Assembly: GCA_015493525.1 (NCBI GenBank)
Contig: WGCY01000001.1
Span: 1 to 64,000 of the forward strand
Origin: Bacteroidales bacterium
GTDB taxonomy: Bacteria > Bacteroidota > Bacteroidia > Bacteroidales > F082
Direction of reading: 5' to 3'
Length of the DNA: 64,000 bases
Part shown: positions 6,818-19,512 of the stretch, piece by piece
Position numbering within the stretch: position 1 is the first letter of the stretch
Layout of the letters: every line of letters starts with the position of its first letter
Notes under the pieces: generated by a model
Database searches by the model: none
What the model saw: only the letters and a program-made list of their open reading frames with translations
Told to the model about the DNA's origin: nothing
Program-made: the position numbers and the translations under genes

Positions 6818-6918
6818 GTTGTGAGATTTGTATCTTTGACATGATAAACACAACGATAAGTGATACAGAGTGGCTGATAGGGGGGTGTGAATTGCTTTCG
6901 ATTTGTATCTTTGATATG
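6818..6918 (+). CRISPR. Decayed left end of the CRISPR array (two damaged repeats, one spacer)
   Basis: Positions 6818-6854 match the array repeat except for a clean loss of nine internal bases (ATTGCTTTC), giving 37 bp instead of 46. Positions 6855-6883/4 are a spacer of 29-30 bp. Positions 6884-6918 match repeat bases 1-35 with a changed or missing base near the 5' end and one C-to-T change (GATATG for GACATG), and then homology stops abruptly where the cassette begins. The missing repeat end is found at 8134. The strand and orientation match the main array. Confidence 0.9.
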
Positions 6919-6963
6919 TTACCAACCATGTTGAAAAAGAAAATCGTGCATCATAAAAATGAT

Positions 6964-6971
6964 TAATTTTG
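6964..6971 (+). promoter_or_regulatory. Candidate -7 box inside the cassette
   Basis: TAATTTTG matches TAnnTTTG and lies 24 bases before the nuclease ATG. It is in AT-rich sequence, so a chance match is possible. The other candidate promoter is the TATCTTTG box at 6906-6913 in the interrupted CRISPR repeat. Confidence 0.35.
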
Positions 6972-6995
6972 AATTTTTACCGTTAAAATAATCGA

Positions 6996-8006
6996 ATGAT
7001 TAGCAAAGATTACAAAAGAACACTTGAATTGATAAAACTTGAAATCCAAACTGCAAGATTTCAAGTTGTAAGAACTATCACAAAAGAACATATTGAACTT
7101 TATTGGAAGATAGGAAAAATAATTTTAGAAAAACAAAAAGAACAAGGTTGGGGAAAATCAGTAGTTGAAAAAATATCAACTGACCTTCAAAAAGATTTCC
7201 CGGAAAGTAGTGGATATTCCGCAAGAAATCTTTGGGACATGAGGCGGTTTTATTCCCGTTATTCATCCAATGAAAAACTGCGACAGCTTGTCGCAGAAAT
7301 TCCATGGGGACAAAATTTGTTAATACTTACAAAAATAAAAGACGATAAAGAGGCTGAATATTATCTAAAAGCAACGAAAGAATATGGTTGGAGCAGAAAC
7401 GTTTTATTAAATCAAATTAAGGCAGATGCATACACAAGGGCATTATCTGAGAACAAAACCCATAATTTTCAAACAGCACTTCCTGAATATCTCTCAGAAC
7501 AAGCAGACGAAGCCATAAAAAGTGAATATAACCTTGAATTCCTTGGACTAAAAGAAAGAGTAAAAGAGCGGGAACTTGAAAACAAAATGATTGAAAAAAT
7601 CCGTGATGTAATCATGGAATTTGGTGCTGGGTTTGCTTTTCTTGGAAATCAGTTCAAATTAAAATTAGGAGATAAAGAGTACTTCATTGACCTTTTATTT
7701 TATCATCGGAAACTACAGTGTCTTGTCGCTGTCGAACTAAAAGTTGGAGAATTTAAACCAGAATATGCAGGAAAATTGAATTTCTACCTTGAAGTTTTAG
7801 ATAATACGGAAAAAACAGAAAGTGAAAATCCATCAATTGGAATTTTACTTTGTGCGGAGAAAAACACATTAGAAGTTGAATACGCACTTAGAACGACAAA
7901 TAAACCAATTGGGGTTGCAGAATATCAATTGACAAAAGATTTACCAAAGAAGTACAAAAAATATTTACCAAACAATAAAGTAATAATTGAAAAACTTAAA
8001 GAGTAA
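6996..8006 (+). CDS. DUF1016/YhcG-type PD-(D/E)XK nuclease
   Basis: A 336-residue protein with the DUF1016 architecture: an N-terminal helical domain (about residues 10-150, with the family's WKIGKIILEKQ and SARNLWDMRRFY segments) and a C-terminal YhcG-type nuclease domain (about 175-330). The nuclease core is visible as Asp-232 in YFIDLLFYH and Glu-247/Lys-249 in VELKVGEF, so the active site looks intact. Proteins of this family often travel near restriction systems or mobile elements, but their biological role is not firmly established. Here the gene is the only one in a cassette lodged inside a CRISPR repeat. Its AT-rich codons differ from the flanking housekeeping genes, which supports transfer. 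The ATG chosen follows a 77-base leader within the cassette. Confidence 0.9.
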   Translation: MISKDYKRTLELIKLEIQTARFQVVRTITKEHIELYWKIGKIILEKQKEQGWGKSVVEKISTDLQKDFPESSGYSARNLWDMRRFYSRYSSNEKLRQLVAEIPWGQNLLILTKIKDDKEAEYYLKATKEYGWSRNVLLNQIKADAYTRALSENKTHNFQTALPEYLSEQADEAIKSEYNLEFLGLKERVKERELENKMIEKIRDVIMEFGAGFAFLGNQFKLKLGDKEYFIDLLFYHRKLQCLVAVELKVGEFKPEYAGKLNFYLEVLDNTEKTESENPSIGILLCAEKNTLEVEYALRTTNKPIGVAEYQLTKDLPKKYKKYLPNNKVIIEKLKE

Positions 8007-8011
8007 AACAC

Positions 8012-8133
8012 GGTTGGTAACATCGGCTCATAGTGCATACCGCAATTAGTTGTAGATAAGATGATTAAACATTAAATGAACATACCGGAAATTATAACAT
8101 TGAAATTGCGGCACGCACCATAGCCGCGGAGCG
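8012..8133 (+). repeat. attC-like folded recombination site (cassette 3' end)
   Basis: The outer arm GGTTGGTAAC (8012-8021) pairs perfectly with GTTACCAACC at 6918-6927, the cassette's other end. Inside it, 8024-8046 pairs with 8105-8126. The pairing has a run of seven (CCGCAAT with ATTGCGG), further blocks, three mismatches and one unpaired base (C-8029). The unpaired spacers are 2 and 6 bases and the terminal loop is 58 bases (8047-8104). Paired outer boxes ending in AAC/GTT, unequal spacers, an extrahelical base and a variable loop are the marks of integron attC sites. The outer boxes do not fit the strict RYYYAAC/GTTRRRY consensus, so a different ssDNA-type recombination site remains possible. 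Confidence 0.7.
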
Positions 8134-8174
8134 ATAAACCCAACGGCACTTCAATTGTATTTACCGGGGTTACA
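8134..8174 (+). CRISPR. Displaced 3' end of the interrupted repeat plus one 30-bp spacer
   Basis: ATAAACCCAAC (8134-8144) matches the last 11 bases of the array repeat with one change. It is followed by exactly 30 bases (8145-8174), the array's fixed spacer length, and then the first intact repeat at 8175. Together with 6884-6918 it reconstitutes one 46-bp repeat, showing that the cassette landed within a pre-existing array. Confidence 0.9.
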
Positions 8175-9132
8175 GTTGTGAATTGCTTTCGATTTGTATC
8201 TTTGACATGATAAACACAACTTGTGGGAAAATCTCGGCATGTTGGCAGGTGTTGTGAATTGCTTTCGATTTGTATCTTTGACATGATAAACACAACTTGC
8301 CGATGAACCTGATCACAAAGACAACGGTTGTGAATTGCTTTCGATTTGTATCTTTGACATGATAAACACAACGCGTCCTTGTATTCCAGAAAGGTTACAT
8401 CGGTTGTGAATTGCTTTCGATTTGTATCTTTGACATGATAAACACAACTATCAGCGATGAACGCACCATCGGCATTCTGTTGTGAATTGCTTTCGATTTG
8501 TATCTTTGACATGATAAACACAACAACAAGTCATTCAGCTTGTCACGCTTAGGGGTTGTGAATTGCTTTCGATTTGTATCTTTGACATGATAAACACAAC
8601 AACGATAGAAGCCTCGCGGGGAGTCCATTTGTTGTGAATTGCTTTCGATTTGTATCTTTGACATGATAAACACAACGTAGTGCCTGCAGAGGATATAGTA
8701 ACCTGGGTTGTGAATTGCTTTCGATTTGTATCTTTGACATGATAAACACAACGATTTGGACGAAAAAGACATCAGAGAGAAAGTTGTGAATTGCTTTCGA
8801 TTTGTATCTTTGACATGATAAACACAACAACACCCCCAGGCAGTTCGGGGGATTATGCGTTGTGAATTGCTTTCGATTTGTATCTTTGACATGATAAACA
8901 CAACTCCAGGCGTTGAACCCGGACATTTGAGAGGGTTGTGAATTGCTTTCGATTTGTATCTTTGACATGATAAACACAACGCCGCCGCATAGCTGCATTC
9001 GTTGCGCACAGTTGTGAATTGCTTTCGATTTGTATCTTTGACATGATAAACACAACTTCTCCGTATAACAAAATACCTTGAGTCGGGTTGTGAATTGCTT
9101 TCGATTTGTATCTTTGACATGATAAACACAAC
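8175..9132 (+). CRISPR. Type II-C CRISPR array, 13 repeats and 12 spacers
   Basis: Thirteen identical 46-bp repeats start at 8175 and recur every 76 bases to 9087-9132, so all twelve spacers are exactly 30 bp. The repeat begins GTTGTGAATTGCTTTC and ends GATAAACACAAC, and its general form is that of Bacteroidota type II-C repeats. The reading direction is taken as + because the tracrRNA at 15083 pairs with repeat bases 2-24 only in this sense, and because a terminator lies to the right. Each repeat holds TATCTTTG at bases 23-30, a TAnnTTTG -7 box, with a TTG at bases 2-4. Apparent open frames on the - strand are only translations of the repeats. By eye no spacer matches the rest of this window. 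Confidence 0.98.

Positions 9133-9280: not shown

Positions 9281-9282
<2 letters not shown>
9244..9282 (+). terminator. Intrinsic terminator after the CRISPR array
   Basis: A 13-bp perfect stem (TCCGGTAAAATAA paired with its complement ending ACCGGA), a six-base loop and eight T on the + strand. It would end array transcripts before they run into cas2. The last T bases overlap the cas2 stop codon. Confidence 0.8.
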
Positions 9283-10508
<1,226 letters not shown>

Positions 10509-10512
<4 letters not shown>

Positions 10513-13500
10513 CGGATTATTTGAATAATGTTACCTAATCTGTCTGTTTTGAGTTTCCAACAACGTTCTTTTATTGAAAAACTATTTAAATCAAATTCAA
10601 GTTTATTCAGACTGGAAAACTCAAATTTATTAATGATAGGTTTTGAAATATTGTATTGAATACAATATAAACGATTTCCAGTACAGCTTACCATCTTATA
10701 GATTCGATTAACCTGTTCTTTTTTAAGATGGGTAAAATCAACTAACTGCTGATTTTCTTTTTCTTCATCGGTCGGAACATATACGAGGTCGTTGGGTGAA
10801 AGTGTGAACAACAACGTTCCTTTTTCAGGTTTTGTCGGAATGGGGGTTCTTTCTTCCTTGGATAAATGGGCCACTTGTTTTTGATGCTCAATGACCTCGT
10901 TTAGCGGAACGGTTTCGTAATTACGTTTACCTGTTTCATCTTGGTAAATAGCGAAAAAAAGGTTGGTTCCTTTGGCTGCTTCCACATATTTTTTATTGCG
11001 GTTGCCTTTGATGCCCACGGCAAACTTGTTTCCTTCTTCATACATGCTCACTTTGAAAATAGCATGATGGGCTTTGCCATTATTTAACCGAACTATATTT
11101 TTATTTAGTTCATCTATTCCTTCCGGACTAAAAGCCAGCTCAAAATTTTCTTTTCCTTCCGCATCTCTATAATTCTTAAGATGGTTTTTAAGAATATTTC
11201 TAATTCCGCTATCTGTTACTTTCTCAATATGCTTGTACGTTTTTATTTCAGATAAGGAAGTCCTTACCGCAGTAGCCTCAGTATAAACAAGTACCCGGGT
11301 AATCTTTTTTTTGTTAATGATTACAGGGTTTCTTTTAAAATATGCTATACGCTCTTTTGTGTTTTCTATGTTAGCACTTTCGACAATATCCCTTATTCTT
11401 TGATTGACAATTAACCGTGGGCTTTCAATTGCCTTATTAAAAGAAACTTCTTTTCCTGTATTGATGAAAACTTTTCCTGAAACTGTTTCTTTATGTAATG
11501 GCTTCCTGATAGCCCAATTATCTCCTTTGGTTTGTGGTACGAGTTGTTTCTTAAGTTTTCCTTGTTTTTTAACCCACTGCCATGTTCTGTTGTTGGTTTT
11601 GTTGATTACCCGCAGATTCTGTTTAAAGCTGACAATGGCTTTCTCAAGAGATTCTTTGGCATCTTCGGGGAAAGTCTGCCAGGGTAATTTATAGGCTTTT
11701 GCAATTCTTCTTTTTTCTCTTTCGCCGGTTCTTTTATTGGGAAACTCAACGTCTTCAATCACTCTAAGTTTTGATACAAGACTATAGTTTTTTCTACTGG
11801 TATTAATGGAAGTAATGTAATTAATGTGGTCTTTTGTACAGCAGGCGATGACCAGGGCATCCATTGCATGGTGTCGATGGTCAATTCTTTTTTTGTTAAA
11901 ACCTTTTGATATTTTGTCGGGTACTTTTGTTCGGAAAGCATTTATTTTCCCATCCCACGACCCGTAATCTTCAGATTTTGTCAATTCATTTAGCCTTTTA
12001 AACCGGGGAGCAATTATCTCATTCCATTTGTCATTTAATCCCCAGTTTTGTTTTAACATGGATGTGATTGCACCGGTAACGGGAACTACATTCTTTGCAA
12101 TGGCTTCCTGTTCACCTTCTTCTCTGATAATATTGCTTAACAAATTCTTTATCAGTTTGCTTATATAACGGCTGTCATTCAATTGTCTGTTAATAAAACC
12201 TTCCGGCACCTCTTCACTGAGTAATTTCTTTAGCTTGGAATAATTCTTTTTGAAATACCTGTTACAGTGTTCTTCGTAAGATTCCAGGCTAAAAATTTCC
12301 ACATTTTTCCCCTGTCCTAAAAAAATCCGCTCACCACCATGATGCTTAATGAATTCATAAGCCGTTTGATTGTCTTTTATTTGATTTACTTCGCTTTCGC
12401 AGATTACTTTGTTGCTAAATGAATCATCAAAATAACGGGATTGGGGAATAATATGTTCTATCTGATAATCAGTTGTAAACAATTTGCCCAACGGAATTGT
12501 TTTTCCGGTGTAAGGTGAAGTGTAACCCTGCTCTAACCATAACTTATAGCGTAGTATTTCAGAGGACGTGGGCGAGGAAGATTTTCGTATTTTTTCTATC
12601 TCATTTTCACTGACTTTTGTAAAAATTGTATCGGGATTTTGGTAAATACCTTCTTCATATATTTTTAATATTTCCTGCTGACTGGGAGAATAAGGCTTAA
12701 CAGCTTCTACCCCTTCATTTTTAAGCTCCAGTAAAATTGCCTTTATGCGCTGGTTTGTATTTTCATTTTCTGTATTTTTTTGAGCTATTTGTTTGCGTTT
12801 TGCAGCAGGGTTTTTCATATCCCTTCCTAATTCGATGTGAATTTCGTCAAAGTAATTTTCCTCACTGTTTCCGTAATGTTTCCAGATATCCCTGACTGTT
12901 CGTAATGTTTCGGTAACTATCTGTTCCACAATGGGGTTTCGCAGGCTGTGTTGTTTAAATTTTAAAAGAAATTTATCGATGTCTGCCGGTGTTTTCCAAC
13001 GTTGTATATTTCCGCTTTCAGCATGTCTGTCGTAAACGATGTAGGAAGCCAACCATAATGGTAATCCTTTGAAGTCATCAACCTTTGTCAGGTTTATTGC
13101 TTTTTCACGAACTCTGTCCCGAATCTTTTCGTCAAACTCTCCGGTTAAAATCTTTTCTATTCGTTCACTTGTTTTTGGGTCAATGGCATTCTGGTCCCAA
13201 TATTTCCCCATTCGCATTAATGGTAATAATTTTTTAATGGCTTTTTCCGAAAATGTGCTATATTCATTTCTAAAGGGAGGAAATTTGATAAAATTTTTCA
13301 CGAAAGATGCCTCATCAATATTGTGTTTTCGAGCAAACGTATGGAGTGCTTTTTCGTATTCCTTCAAGTCTTTGATGGAGTAAATAATATGCCATAATGC
13401 TTCCTCAACTTTTTTGGAGAGAAATGCCCCAGCATCTAAATTGTCTGTTTTTTTCAGGCGGGACAGGAAAAGTGCTTTGGTTTCATTGGCAGGATATTCT

Positions 13501-15044
13501 TTGTCTTCTACATAATTCCAACGATAATTACTTTTTTGTCTTTTATCAATTTTTCCTTTTGAAATAAAATACTGTATTACAATTTTCTGGCTGACTTTCT
13601 TATTCTGGTTAAGAAAATCATAGAGTTCAGTTTGCTCCTCATCAGTTTCTATTAAATCGTCAGTTATGTTTTTATCAATAAGATTTCCCTTGTCATCATT
13701 CTTCTGAATAATTTTTAAATTTTTCAGAAACTGCCACAGCCTGAATTCCTGATACAAGGGATGTGATTTTGAAATGGCTTTAATGGGTTCTGCAACTTCA
13801 ATTTCTCTTTCTTCCCCTGTAATTTTGTCTGTTATTGTTTTATTAAAAGTTCTGGATTCAAACTGACAACCTGAAATCGTCGATTTTTTGCTCTTTAACG
13901 GGCGTTGATAAAAGATTATGTCTTCAATAAACAGATAGTCAAATCCTTTGTCGGCAATGTTGTTTTGGTGCGCTTTGTTTCTTGGGTATAATTCGTTTAT
14001 GCAAGCTTTGTATAGGGTCCTGTTTTGTAATTCCGGATGAAAAGTTATCTGCTTTCTCAAAATGGCATACAACTCCTTTTTGTAATATTCTCGTTCGATT
14101 GTTCTGATGAGTTTGCCCCTTATTTTTTGATGGGGATTCATAATCAAAGTATCATAAATATATTCGCCAATATTCTTTTTTGATTCAATAATTTCCTGCT
14201 CTGTCTTCTTCTTTAAAAGATTCCAGTCATCTTCTTTTGGCGACCTAAAACTCCTTTTGGGCTTTCCCTCTTTATCGATAGTAGTTGTAACAATAAATTC
14301 TTTGATTTTTCCAATCCAGCTGTCCAATGGTTCTTTACTCTGCCTTTTATAAATCCAGTCATTTTCTAAAATTACGTTATACCATATCCCTTTGGCGTTT
14401 TTATCTTCGGTTTCTTTGATATCTACAACCTTTAGCGCATAAAACTTTTCATCCTTTTTCTTATTTTCTTCTGTTTCATCCCCCCTTAATTGATAATATC
14501 CACGCTTTTGGTTAAAGTTCAGAATAATCCATGCCAATTCTTCTTTACTGATTTTTTCAGTTAATGCCTTTTTTCGAAGATAATAAATGGTCCAGTCGAA
14601 TGGTATTTTGGAGTTTAATCCATTGGCTTCAAAATCTTTCATCATTTCGGTAAAAGAGTTCAAAAAAATAAACTCATATTTCCCCTGAAAGTTTTCTCGG
14701 TAATTCAATTTTACCTCATTTATAAATTGACCCGGATGATTTTCAAAATCAATTTCTTTTTTATAATGCTCGGGTAGAAATCCTAAAATATTGAGTACCC
14801 TGTGCAATCGATCCCGTCGTAAATTATCTCTTTGATAAAGCCTCCTTATTCCTCTGAAAGCTGTTCTGTCTGCAGTTTGGGAAATAGTATTACCCTGGCT
14901 AAAGTCTGATAATTGAGCTTGATCCATTGGAATAATCCTACTGTTCAGCCCCTGGATACTTCCTTGCTTTTTGTCAAAATCTAAATTAACCAATGCCCAT
15001 CCAATGCTATTGGTTCCCAAATCCAGGCCCAAAATTTTTTTCAT
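10509..15044 (-). CDS. cas9: Type II-C CRISPR RNA-guided endonuclease Cas9
   Basis: An RNA-guided DNA endonuclease of 1511 residues, in the long range for II-C Cas9 of Bacteroidota. RuvC-I is at the N-terminus (GLDLGTNSIGW, Asp-8) and is followed by the Arg-rich bridge helix (FRGIRRLYQRDNLRRDRL, about residues 62-79). RuvC-II carries Glu-738 (HIELGRDM), the HNH domain carries His-864 (IEHIIPQSRYFDDS), and RuvC-III carries Asp-1062 (HRHHAMDALV). The remaining 450 residues would include the PAM-interacting domain. All nuclease residues are present, so the protein looks active. It has a 4-base overlap with cas1. No TAnnTTTG box was found upstream on its strand. It is noticeably AT-rich compared with cas1-cas2. 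Confidence 0.98.
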
Positions 15045-17383: not shown

Positions 17384-19512
17384 GGCGACAATGGCTTACC
17401 ATAGCGTTTTTCTGGCTTATGGCCATTCCGGTTTTGTCGGCCCAGGAGGCATTGACCGGCCTTGCTTTCAATAATGTGGTACGGCAGAAATTTCTTAGCA
17501 ATAAACATCTTTCTGCTTTTAAGTCATCCCGGCTACCGGTGTTGCTGAACCTTCCTTTTTTTGACGATTTTACCACATCCCGGGTTTTCCCCGACGGCCA
17601 TCGTTGGGTTGAGAGAGCGGTTTTTGTGAACAACAGCTTTGGTTATCTGCCGCCTGACCAGTGGGTTGCAACGTTTGATGCGCTTGACTCCACGGGCAAT
17701 ATTTACGGCTCGGCCCTTTCGGTGCCTTTCAAAGCGGACCGGCTTACCTCACAGCCCCTTCGCCTTGATTCTGTTTTTACACCGGTGGCCGCGAAATTAA
17801 GTCCGGCCGATTCGGTATACCTGAGTTTTTATTATCAGCCGCAGGGCATGGGCGATGCCCCTGAGCCGGGCGATTCGCTGGTTTTGGCTTTTCGTGTGCT
17901 CACGGGGGACACGGTGTTTTCACACATCGATTCGGCCTGGGTTTCCGTAAACAGTTATCTGGGAAGCCCGCACGATACGCTGCACCCGCAGGATACTTTA
18001 TGGGCAAAGCCTCCTTGTGATACAAATTTTTATGTGGTCAATTACGGTACGTTGGTGTGGGGCGACAGTGTGCTGTTTCCCTGCGACTCGGTTTTTGTGC
18101 CCGGCACAAAGTGGGAAACAGTTTGGAAAACACCGGGGATGACCTTAAAAGCGTTTCAGAAAAAAACAGGCAAAGATTTTCTGCAGGTTATGGTTCCCGT
18201 GCGCCGGCAGGATTGTTTTTATAAAGGCTTTCAGTTTCGGTTTTTCAACTATGCCAGTATTGCCAATGACATTAACCCCGGTTGGCAAAGTAATGTGGAT
18301 GAGTGGAATGTGGATTATGTTTATCTGAATGCAGGCCGGTCAGCGGGCGATACTACTTTTCGGGCCATTGCCTTTTCGGGCACGCATCCGAATTTTCTGA
18401 AACATTACACCGAGATGCCCTACAGGCAATATCGTTCCGACCCGACAAATTCACTGATTCCCGACTTTCACGTTTATATTGATAACCTCGACCGTGTGGG
18501 CCACAATATTCATTATTACTACAAGGTTAGCCAGGTAAATGGTCCGTTTGCCTATGGTTATGATGGCGGGAGCTGTGTGCTGAAACCGTTTTATCAGGTT
18601 GGTTTTCAGAATTGTAACAGCAGTTGTGGCGCAGCCCAGGCCTGTCCGCCGGTAAACAGCCTGTTTTCGCTGGATTATGATCGCGACACGACCTCTTATG
18701 TTATCAAGCACTTCATTAGTGATTCTTCCGTCTCCCCGCCGTTGGTCGATTCCATGGTTTACCGTCAGGCATTTTACAACGAGTATGCCTTCGATGATGG
18801 TGTTCCCGAATTGGGATATACGCTGGAGCCTGCCGGTGCGGAACTGGCTTACCGGTTTAAGATAAATGTTCCCGACACGCTGCGTGCCGTGCGTATTTAT
18901 TTCAATAAGATGAAGAATTCCTCTTCGCAATTTTTTGATTTGGTGGTTTGGCGCGACAATAATGGCAAGCCCGGTGAAGAAATCTACAGGCAGCGGAACC
19001 TAAAAGTGCATTGGGACAAAGGGTTATATCCTTTTGCCACTTATGTGCTCGATACTGCCCGGCTTATTTCGGGAACGTTTTATGTGGGCTATCAGCAACA
19101 AAACCAGAGCCTGAATGTGGGTTTTGACACACAACATGATGTGGGCAAAAACATTTTTTATTTTGCTGAAAATGTTTGGTATAACACCAGTTTTAAAGGG
19201 GCTTTGCTGATACGTCCCGTGATTGGCGGGCAGGAGATGGTTACGGGGACAGGCAGGTTTCATGCGCGGGAAGAGAAGACTTTGGATGTCTATCCCAATC
19301 CGGCACAAAGCCAGTTGCGTTTTACCGCCCGTGGTTTGGTACCGGGCACTGCAATGGAGGCGGGCGTTTACAACCTTTTCGGGCAGATGGTCAGCCACAG
19401 TGTACTTCACCGGAACTTTTTGAATATCCGCTTTCTCAGCAATGGGATGTACCTGCTGCGGATTTCTTCCAACCATCGGGTTTATTCCACAAAATTTATC
19501 GTAAAACATTAG
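17380..19512 (+). CDS. Large secreted protein with a T9SS type A sorting domain
   Basis: 710 residues with a signal peptide (RRQWLTIAFFWLMAIPVLSAQ), a long beta-rich region without a recognised enzyme motif, and a C-terminal Por-secretion domain. The sorting domain is visible as LDVYPNPAQSQLRF, GVYNLFGQMVS, NIRFLSNGMYLLRISS and a final FIVKH. The protein should pass the outer membrane by the type IX system and be anchored or released. It is translationally coupled to the PASTA gene (ATGA overlap), which may link it to envelope assembly; that is inference. Confidence 0.88.
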   Translation: MRRQWLTIAFFWLMAIPVLSAQEALTGLAFNNVVRQKFLSNKHLSAFKSSRLPVLLNLPFFDDFTTSRVFPDGHRWVERAVFVNNSFGYLPPDQWVATFDALDSTGNIYGSALSVPFKADRLTSQPLRLDSVFTPVAAKLSPADSVYLSFYYQPQGMGDAPEPGDSLVLAFRVLTGDTVFSHIDSAWVSVNSYLGSPHDTLHPQDTLWAKPPCDTNFYVVNYGTLVWGDSVLFPCDSVFVPGTKWETVWKTPGMTLKAFQKKTGKDFLQVMVPVRRQDCFYKGFQFRFFNYASIANDINPGWQSNVDEWNVDYVYLNAGRSAGDTTFRAIAFSGTHPNFLKHYTEMPYRQYRSDPTNSLIPDFHVYIDNLDRVGHNIHYYYKVSQVNGPFAYGYDGGSCVLKPFYQVGFQNCNSSCGAAQACPPVNSLFSLDYDRDTTSYVIKHFISDSSVSPPLVDSMVYRQAFYNEYAFDDGVPELGYTLEPAGAELAYRFKINVPDTLRAVRIYFNKMKNSSSQFFDLVVWRDNNGKPGEEIYRQRNLKVHWDKGLYPFATYVLDTARLISGTFYVGYQQQNQSLNVGFDTQHDVGKNIFYFAENVWYNTSFKGALLIRPVIGGQEMVTGTGRFHAREEKTLDVYPNPAQSQLRFTARGLVPGTAMEAGVYNLFGQMVSHSVLHRNFLNIRFLSNGMYLLRISSNHRVYSTKFIVKH

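Follow-up and report, generated by a model that had tools for sequence, protein, structure and literature searches.

In the 64,000-nucleotide stretch analyzed here (the window), a type II-C CRISPR array is interrupted inside one of its repeats by a 1,215-bp segment that encodes a nuclease, which raises the questions of what kind of unit this insert is, how it entered the repeat and which enzyme could have carried it there. The sequence comes from one metagenome-assembled genome of 53 contigs, and the split repeat is known from this assembly alone. The relevant features of the window are the following:

6818–6854, plus strand, oldest, degenerate CRISPR repeat with a 9-nt internal deletion, assigned by its sequence to the repeat family
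6884–6918, plus strand, 5′ portion of the split repeat (repeat bases 1–35, 2 mismatches)
6919–8133, plus strand, the 1,215-bp insert, interpreted as an integron cassette
6918–6927, plus strand, R′ end of the cassette, GTTACCAACC, with the crossover G|TTACCAACC; exact complement of 8012–8021
6996–8006, plus strand, DUF1016/YhcG PD-(D/E)XK nuclease, 336 aa (DUF1016_N, E 1.7e-43; YhcG_C, E 3e-62)
8012–8133, minus strand, attC site with R″ at 8012–8021, an imperfect hairpin, an extrahelical base and the crossover G at 8133
8134–8144, plus strand, 3′ portion of the split repeat (repeat bases 36–46, 1 mismatch)
8145–8174, plus strand, 30-bp spacer directly after the split repeat
8175–9132, plus strand, intact type II-C array of 13 identical 46-bp repeats and 12 spacers of 30 bp
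9281–9622, minus strand, cas2 (PF09827, E 4.2e-19)
9625–10512, minus strand, cas1 (PF01867, E 3.9e-32)
10509–15044, minus strand, type II-C cas9, 1511 aa (RuvC_III, E 1.8e-57; HNH_4, E 1.8e-21)

The interrupted repeat and its array

The array has a period of 76 bp (a 46-bp repeat plus a 30-bp spacer), and this register is kept both upstream and downstream of the insert. The degenerate repeat is followed by a 29-bp spacer and then by the split repeat, which, as the first-pass annotation had described, is cut after base 35, while its last 11 bases reappear beyond the insert, followed by 30 spacer bases and the undisturbed array; this anatomy was confirmed base for base, and the rejoined repeat has three mismatches to the consensus (43/46). 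The description of the insert as a single DUF1016-type gene lacking a target duplication also held: its product contains both DUF1016_N and YhcG_C, no duplication flanks the 1,215 bp, and the crossover G (6918/8133) is the sole base common to insert and target at the junctions. The insertion step in the repeat reads G|ATAAAC, for which the intact paralogous repeats represent empty sites, and homologous arrays free of the insert, a search for which had been proposed, were found in four relatives (G004, G011, G013 and G014). The insert is co-oriented with the array and sits at its oldest end, leaving the 13 repeats and the cas genes unharmed.

The locus was assigned to type II-C by the presence of cas9–cas1–cas2, with cas9 and cas1 overlapping; csn2, cas4 or any further cas gene was not seen among the window ORFs. 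Comparison of the spacers with all loci retrieved gave matches only to copies of the same CRISPR locus, and an Rfam scan of the window gave no matches. Just outside the array, the segment 9186–9204 (AAAAGTTGTGTTTTGC) is complementary to the repeat end and is a possible tracrRNA anti-repeat. A remnant array in G011 (contig C210, L087:7040-7160) contains one repeat 100% identical to that of the window; its neighbour is a ddl-like gene and no adjoining cas gene was seen, and we take this remnant as CRISPR loss in a close relative.

The insert as a gene cassette

The joined ends of the insert had been proposed to form an attC-like folded site, and the analysis bore this out. The two end sequences, GTTACCAACC (6918–6927) and GGTTGGTAAC (8012–8021), pair at 10 of 10 bases, and the bottom strand, which is the folded strand of this attC, showed after joining spacers of 2 and 6 bases, one extrahelical base and a folding energy of −24.4 kcal/mol as compared with −12.2 ± 2.6 in 500 shuffled sequences, none of which was lower. 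The suggested covariance test was equally clear: a model built from 32 sites of the relatives' set, with the window site left out, detected exactly one site in the window (8142–8013, 97.5 bits, E 5.9e-17), the runner-up having an E value of 9.8. The insert has the anatomy of an integron cassette, with a single gene and an attC at its 3′ side, a bottom-strand hairpin with an extrahelical base, a 5′ start (TT...) complementary to its own R″, and a crossover after G.

Further copies of the site, which the first-pass annotation had advised looking for, occur in the same genome on contigs C11 (two), C22, C9, C29, C15 and C48, with halves on C27 and C44; the window attC matched the C11 site with a BLAST E value of 7e-32. 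On C11, two attC sites separate a Fic gene and a YefM/YoeB pair and have the canonical ends GCCTAAC and GTTATGC. This locus (L009:5234-6960, minus strand) is a second integron of the genome, devoid of an integrase, in which an attI (GGATATAAGAAG|TTAG) adjoining ruvC is followed by the Fic cassette and then by the YefM/YoeB cassette. The other dispersed cassettes of the genome had junctions too decayed or no empty relative, hence no target consensus was derived from them.

About 70 attC sites of the same type were read in relatives. In 32 tandem cassettes, whose start positions were set by the preceding attC, R″ and R′ paired on average at 5.6 of the 7 variable positions (4–10) as compared with 2.5 with shuffled partners (maximum 3.3 in 1000 shuffles), so the pairing holds though the letters vary from cassette to cassette. 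The bottom strand was more stable than the top one at all 42 attC sites examined (42/42, mean −4.0 kcal/mol) because A–C mismatches of the top strand turn into G–T pairs. This covariation and the bottom-strand stability both argue that recombination uses a folded bottom strand. In contrast to the joined ends, the hybrid site now present in the repeat brings together GATAAACCC and GGTTGGTAAC, which pair poorly in the outer box; excision should consequently be rare, and the cassette is probably locked in and now fixed in the repeat.

In a survey of the family, attC sites were found in 56 of 80 genomes and the integrase described below in 41 of 80, and their occurrence is correlated (Fisher p 6e-5, without correction for kinship). 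Neither was present in any of the nine genomes of genus g14. At the threshold used, 19 of the 56 attC-bearing genomes had no integrase, which may reflect losses, contig breaks or other enzymes. Outside the family, only 3 of 295 other genomes of the phylum reached an attC E value of 1e-8, so the system belongs chiefly to this family. No attC core was found in the viral contigs searched, and the same search for the integrase gave only two distant relatives with 22% identity.

The nuclease gene carried by the insert looks intact, and its product matched the candidate phage-defence family PDC-S02 of PADLOC with an E value of 1.5e-136. It resembles the DUF1016/YhcG nucleases of this family in having DUF1016_N and YhcG_C across its full length, and differs from them in being the cargo of an integron cassette within a CRISPR array; its defence role is that of a candidate only, and a functional tie to Cas9 has no support. 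A 93% identical nuclease is present in genus g2 (G012, contig C82), where the DNA similarity extends from about 6986 to just beyond R″ and then ends, the attC hairpin behind R″ being gone. This supports the view that the gene together with R″ is one unit, present at different places.

The integron platform and its XerA-like integrase

Arrays of such cassettes occur in integrons of the same genus. In G004, a complete genome, the order is integrase, attI and about 40 attC sites, all but one co-oriented, in an array spanning 80 kb. After the gene of a 387-aa tyrosine recombinase come GGATACAAGGAG|TTATGCCC and the attC array, the first cassette of which starts with TTATGCCC and ends with GGGCATAAC. 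The conserved attI crossover motif is GGATAYAAGRAG|TT with TGTTATCC[TG]G upstream, and both motifs are found again at the second array of G004, in G003 and on C11 of the window's genome. G012 and G034 likewise have an integrase with attC sites just downstream, and an integrase adjoining attI and a cassette array was found in G004, G012 and G034; XerA-like integrases adjoin attI and arrays in three genera. In the genome of the window, contig C23 encodes a 457-aa integrase directly before an attI (...AAAGGAG|TTA) at the contig end; the contig stops there, with no cassette assembled behind the attI. The first-pass term "integron-like" was consequently right about the cassette nature of the insert but understated the case, as the genus contains true integron arrays complete with attI and integrase. 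The array-linked integrases compared are these:

G004, L081:2152-3315
Genome of the window, contig C23, L021:76-1449
G012, L096:2477-4240

Several other loci of G004 were recorded. At 2.69 Mb (L130:2860-4922), a second, integrase-less attI precedes two cassette-like units, of which the one that follows the attC contains a reverse transcriptase gene (YVDD motif); this array had been considered as a dispersed cassette, which was rejected when its own attI was found. Gene-poor cassettes, each about 519 bp long and with near-identical attC sites, recur at L081:10089-11265, 12464-12602 and 18053-18191, and three of them stand in tandem. The target GTATCTTTGATATG resembles the G004 attI element GTACATTTGATACG at 11 of 14 bases but in another crossover register, and this candidate was discarded as a probable coincidence.

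The first-pass annotation had asked for an IntI-type integrase in the genome. An integrase was indeed found (C23), but it proved to be XerA-like and lacks the IntI domain. The best matches of the array-linked integrase among solved structures were XerA proteins, and the alignment to the solved IntI4 structure skips more than 40 residues. The distance from KGRKDR to RHSFATH is about 65 residues in the array-linked integrase, as compared with about 107 in the IntI of G102 and 73 in the XerD-like protein of the window's genome, and the region around patch III, where the IntI-specific domain lies, is about 40 residues shorter than in IntI4 (2a3v) and in the G102 IntI. TIGR02249 was matched in two pieces only, skipping 178–239, and under its cut-off. 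The NCBIfam XerA model (NF040815, cut-off 220) gave 240.2 for G004 and 198.7 for the C23 integrase, which scored 167.8 against the IntI model (cut-off 265). No canonical IntI above cut-off was found in the genome of the window or in the 80 family genomes; the only near-canonical one in the family is that of G102 (259 bits over the full model; contig C376, L092:1116-2051). This protein has GLSVSE in place of the GLRxSE of tyrosine recombinases and thus appears to lack the box-I arginine. The array-linked integrases bear an N-terminal extension with a GxRWxxxxKxW-like motif, which matched DUF5710 in C23 (E 3.4e-6) and weakly HARP in G012 (E 0.12). This extension could be an ssDNA-binding stand-in for the IntI domain.

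The IntI-specific domain has been called unique and necessary (PMC9668308, PMC4792948), and the IntegronFinder 2.0 survey listed, within Bacteroidetes proper, a single complete integron, that of Salinibacter (PMC9024848). Our literature search, which covered few subscription journals, found no report of integrons like these in Bacteroidales or of a CRISPR repeat that holds a cassette. Judged from sequence, the insert is a gene cassette from a family of chromosomal integrons that resides in this genus and family of Bacteroidales, and it belongs to a hitherto unreported integron group whose integrase lacks a domain thought essential in all integron integrases. Like the chromosomal integrons of Vibrio and Xanthomonas, this family has imperfect-hairpin attC sites with R″/R′ complementarity, a G|TT crossover, an extrahelical base and a more stable bottom strand, an array behind integrase and attI, and toxin–antitoxin, Fic, caspase and ATPase cargo. 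It differs from them in the integrase, which is XerA-like without the IntI domain, has an N-terminal DUF5710/HARP-like extension, and reads in the direction of the array, attI lying at its 3′-end; a canonical intI usually points away from the array.

Route into the repeat and its alternatives

The first-pass annotation took the junctions G|TT and G|AT as fitting cassette insertion at a secondary GAT site, an interpretation that the analysis supported, each of the proposed checks speaking for it. The attG consensus is a G|WT-like step. The insert shares with attG insertion a non-attI position, such a step and the lack of a duplication; it differs from it in its target, a CRISPR repeat, and in the resident integrase, which is not an IntI. 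Recombination of cassettes into genomic attG sites by IntI was described by Loot et al. (2024, Nat Microbiol), as cited in PMC12901181 and PMC11023631. For the window, we propose that a cassette in circular form, its ends joined as GGTTGGTAAC...hairpin...G|TTACCAACC, would present its folded bottom strand to an integron integrase, which would recombine it with the double-stranded non-attI site (G|AT) of the repeat. The acting enzyme would be the XerA-like integrase that adjoins attI and the arrays, the genome's own copy being on C23. That the event was a cassette insertion is almost certain, and the lodging of the cassette in the repeat by the integron route is, as the best overall explanation, very probable; that the XerA-like integrase did it is likely, to judge from its adjacency to attI and arrays and from the lack of IntI in G004.

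The insertion point could have served as a substitute attI and as a promoter for the nuclease. All 13 intact repeats carry TTG-N18-TATCTTTG, a promoter motif of the Bacteroidota type. Repeat-borne promoters have been reported in Flavobacterium II-C arrays (PMC10309648), and repeat-encoded promoters are described for II-C in general, where new spacers are added at the repeat that is transcribed last (PMC12080349). The TATCTTTG box is five bases upstream of the crossover and the cassette gene has the same direction, so the split repeat could drive the nuclease. However, while the 5′ portion of the split repeat (6884–6918) retains the −7-like box, its −33-like TTG is mutated to GTG, which makes present use of the promoter doubtful. 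Expression of the nuclease from the repeat is therefore only tentatively suggested.

The alternatives differ in the agent they assume. Insertion by an IntI-type integrase, since lost or only transiently present, would keep the cassette and change the enzyme; to our knowledge, no enzyme but IntI recombines attC with genomic sites, and the family does contain the near-canonical IntI of G102. Nevertheless, this protein seems to have lost its box-I arginine, the complete genome G004 has about 40 attC sites and no IntI, and it is the XerA-like integrases that adjoin attI and arrays in three genera, thus we consider an IntI unlikely, though the least improbable of the rival agents. A transposon or IS derivative, mobilized in trans by a transposase and resembling attC only incidentally, would account for the single gene, the short terminal inverted repeats (GTTACCAACC/GGTTGGTAAC) and the nuclease cargo. 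It is nonetheless highly improbable: both a target duplication and a transposase are absent, 112 bp, with a conserved hairpin among them, separate the second inverted repeat from the right end, and the same hairpin separates dozens of tandem genes behind an integrase and attI. A related known case is an IS256 that interrupts the type II-C array of Flavobacterium psychrophilum CN46, both parts of which are transcribed (PMC10309648). There too a mobile element breaks a Bacteroidota II-C array, but it is transposase-borne and left a target duplication, unlike the cassette with its site-specific crossover.

Misjoining of a cassette contig into the repetitive array was also considered, given a metagenome-assembled genome of 53 contigs and the fact that CRISPR and attC arrays are both difficult to assemble. 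The one-base identity at the junctions, however, offers an assembler no overlap to mislead it, the cut falls exactly at the canonical crossover G, and the split repeat has three private mutations between flanks in the 76-bp register. With these mutations and a junction homology of a single G, a chance chimera is very unlikely. As for capture of the cassette by Cas1–Cas2 as an oversized spacer, the location in the array beside cas1 and cas2 might suggest it, but such uptake would duplicate a whole repeat and place the DNA between repeats, whereas here the insert lies within a repeat, after its base 35, at the array's oldest end, and nothing is duplicated; this anatomy refutes the idea, to which we give practically no weight. 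Cassette insertion by the integron route remains the preferred explanation.

It is a meeting of two systems not known to meet, integron cassette capture and an adaptive-immune array, in which a CRISPR repeat can serve as a recombination target for a cassette with a candidate defence gene. The event was seen once (n = 1) and so gives no basis for a CRISPR preference. In general terms, there may be a Bacteroidales integron lineage in which a XerA-like recombinase without the IntI domain moves cassettes both to attI and to sites in the genome, among them a CRISPR repeat with a promoter, which would become attI and promoter for a candidate phage-defence nuclease; we hold this wider model to be a serious possibility, at somewhat less than even chances. 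Such integrons would count as integrase-less in standard IntI searches. They make it testable whether the extra IntI domain is needed for recombination of folded attC sites or whether the XerA-like enzyme found another route, perhaps via its own N-terminal extension.
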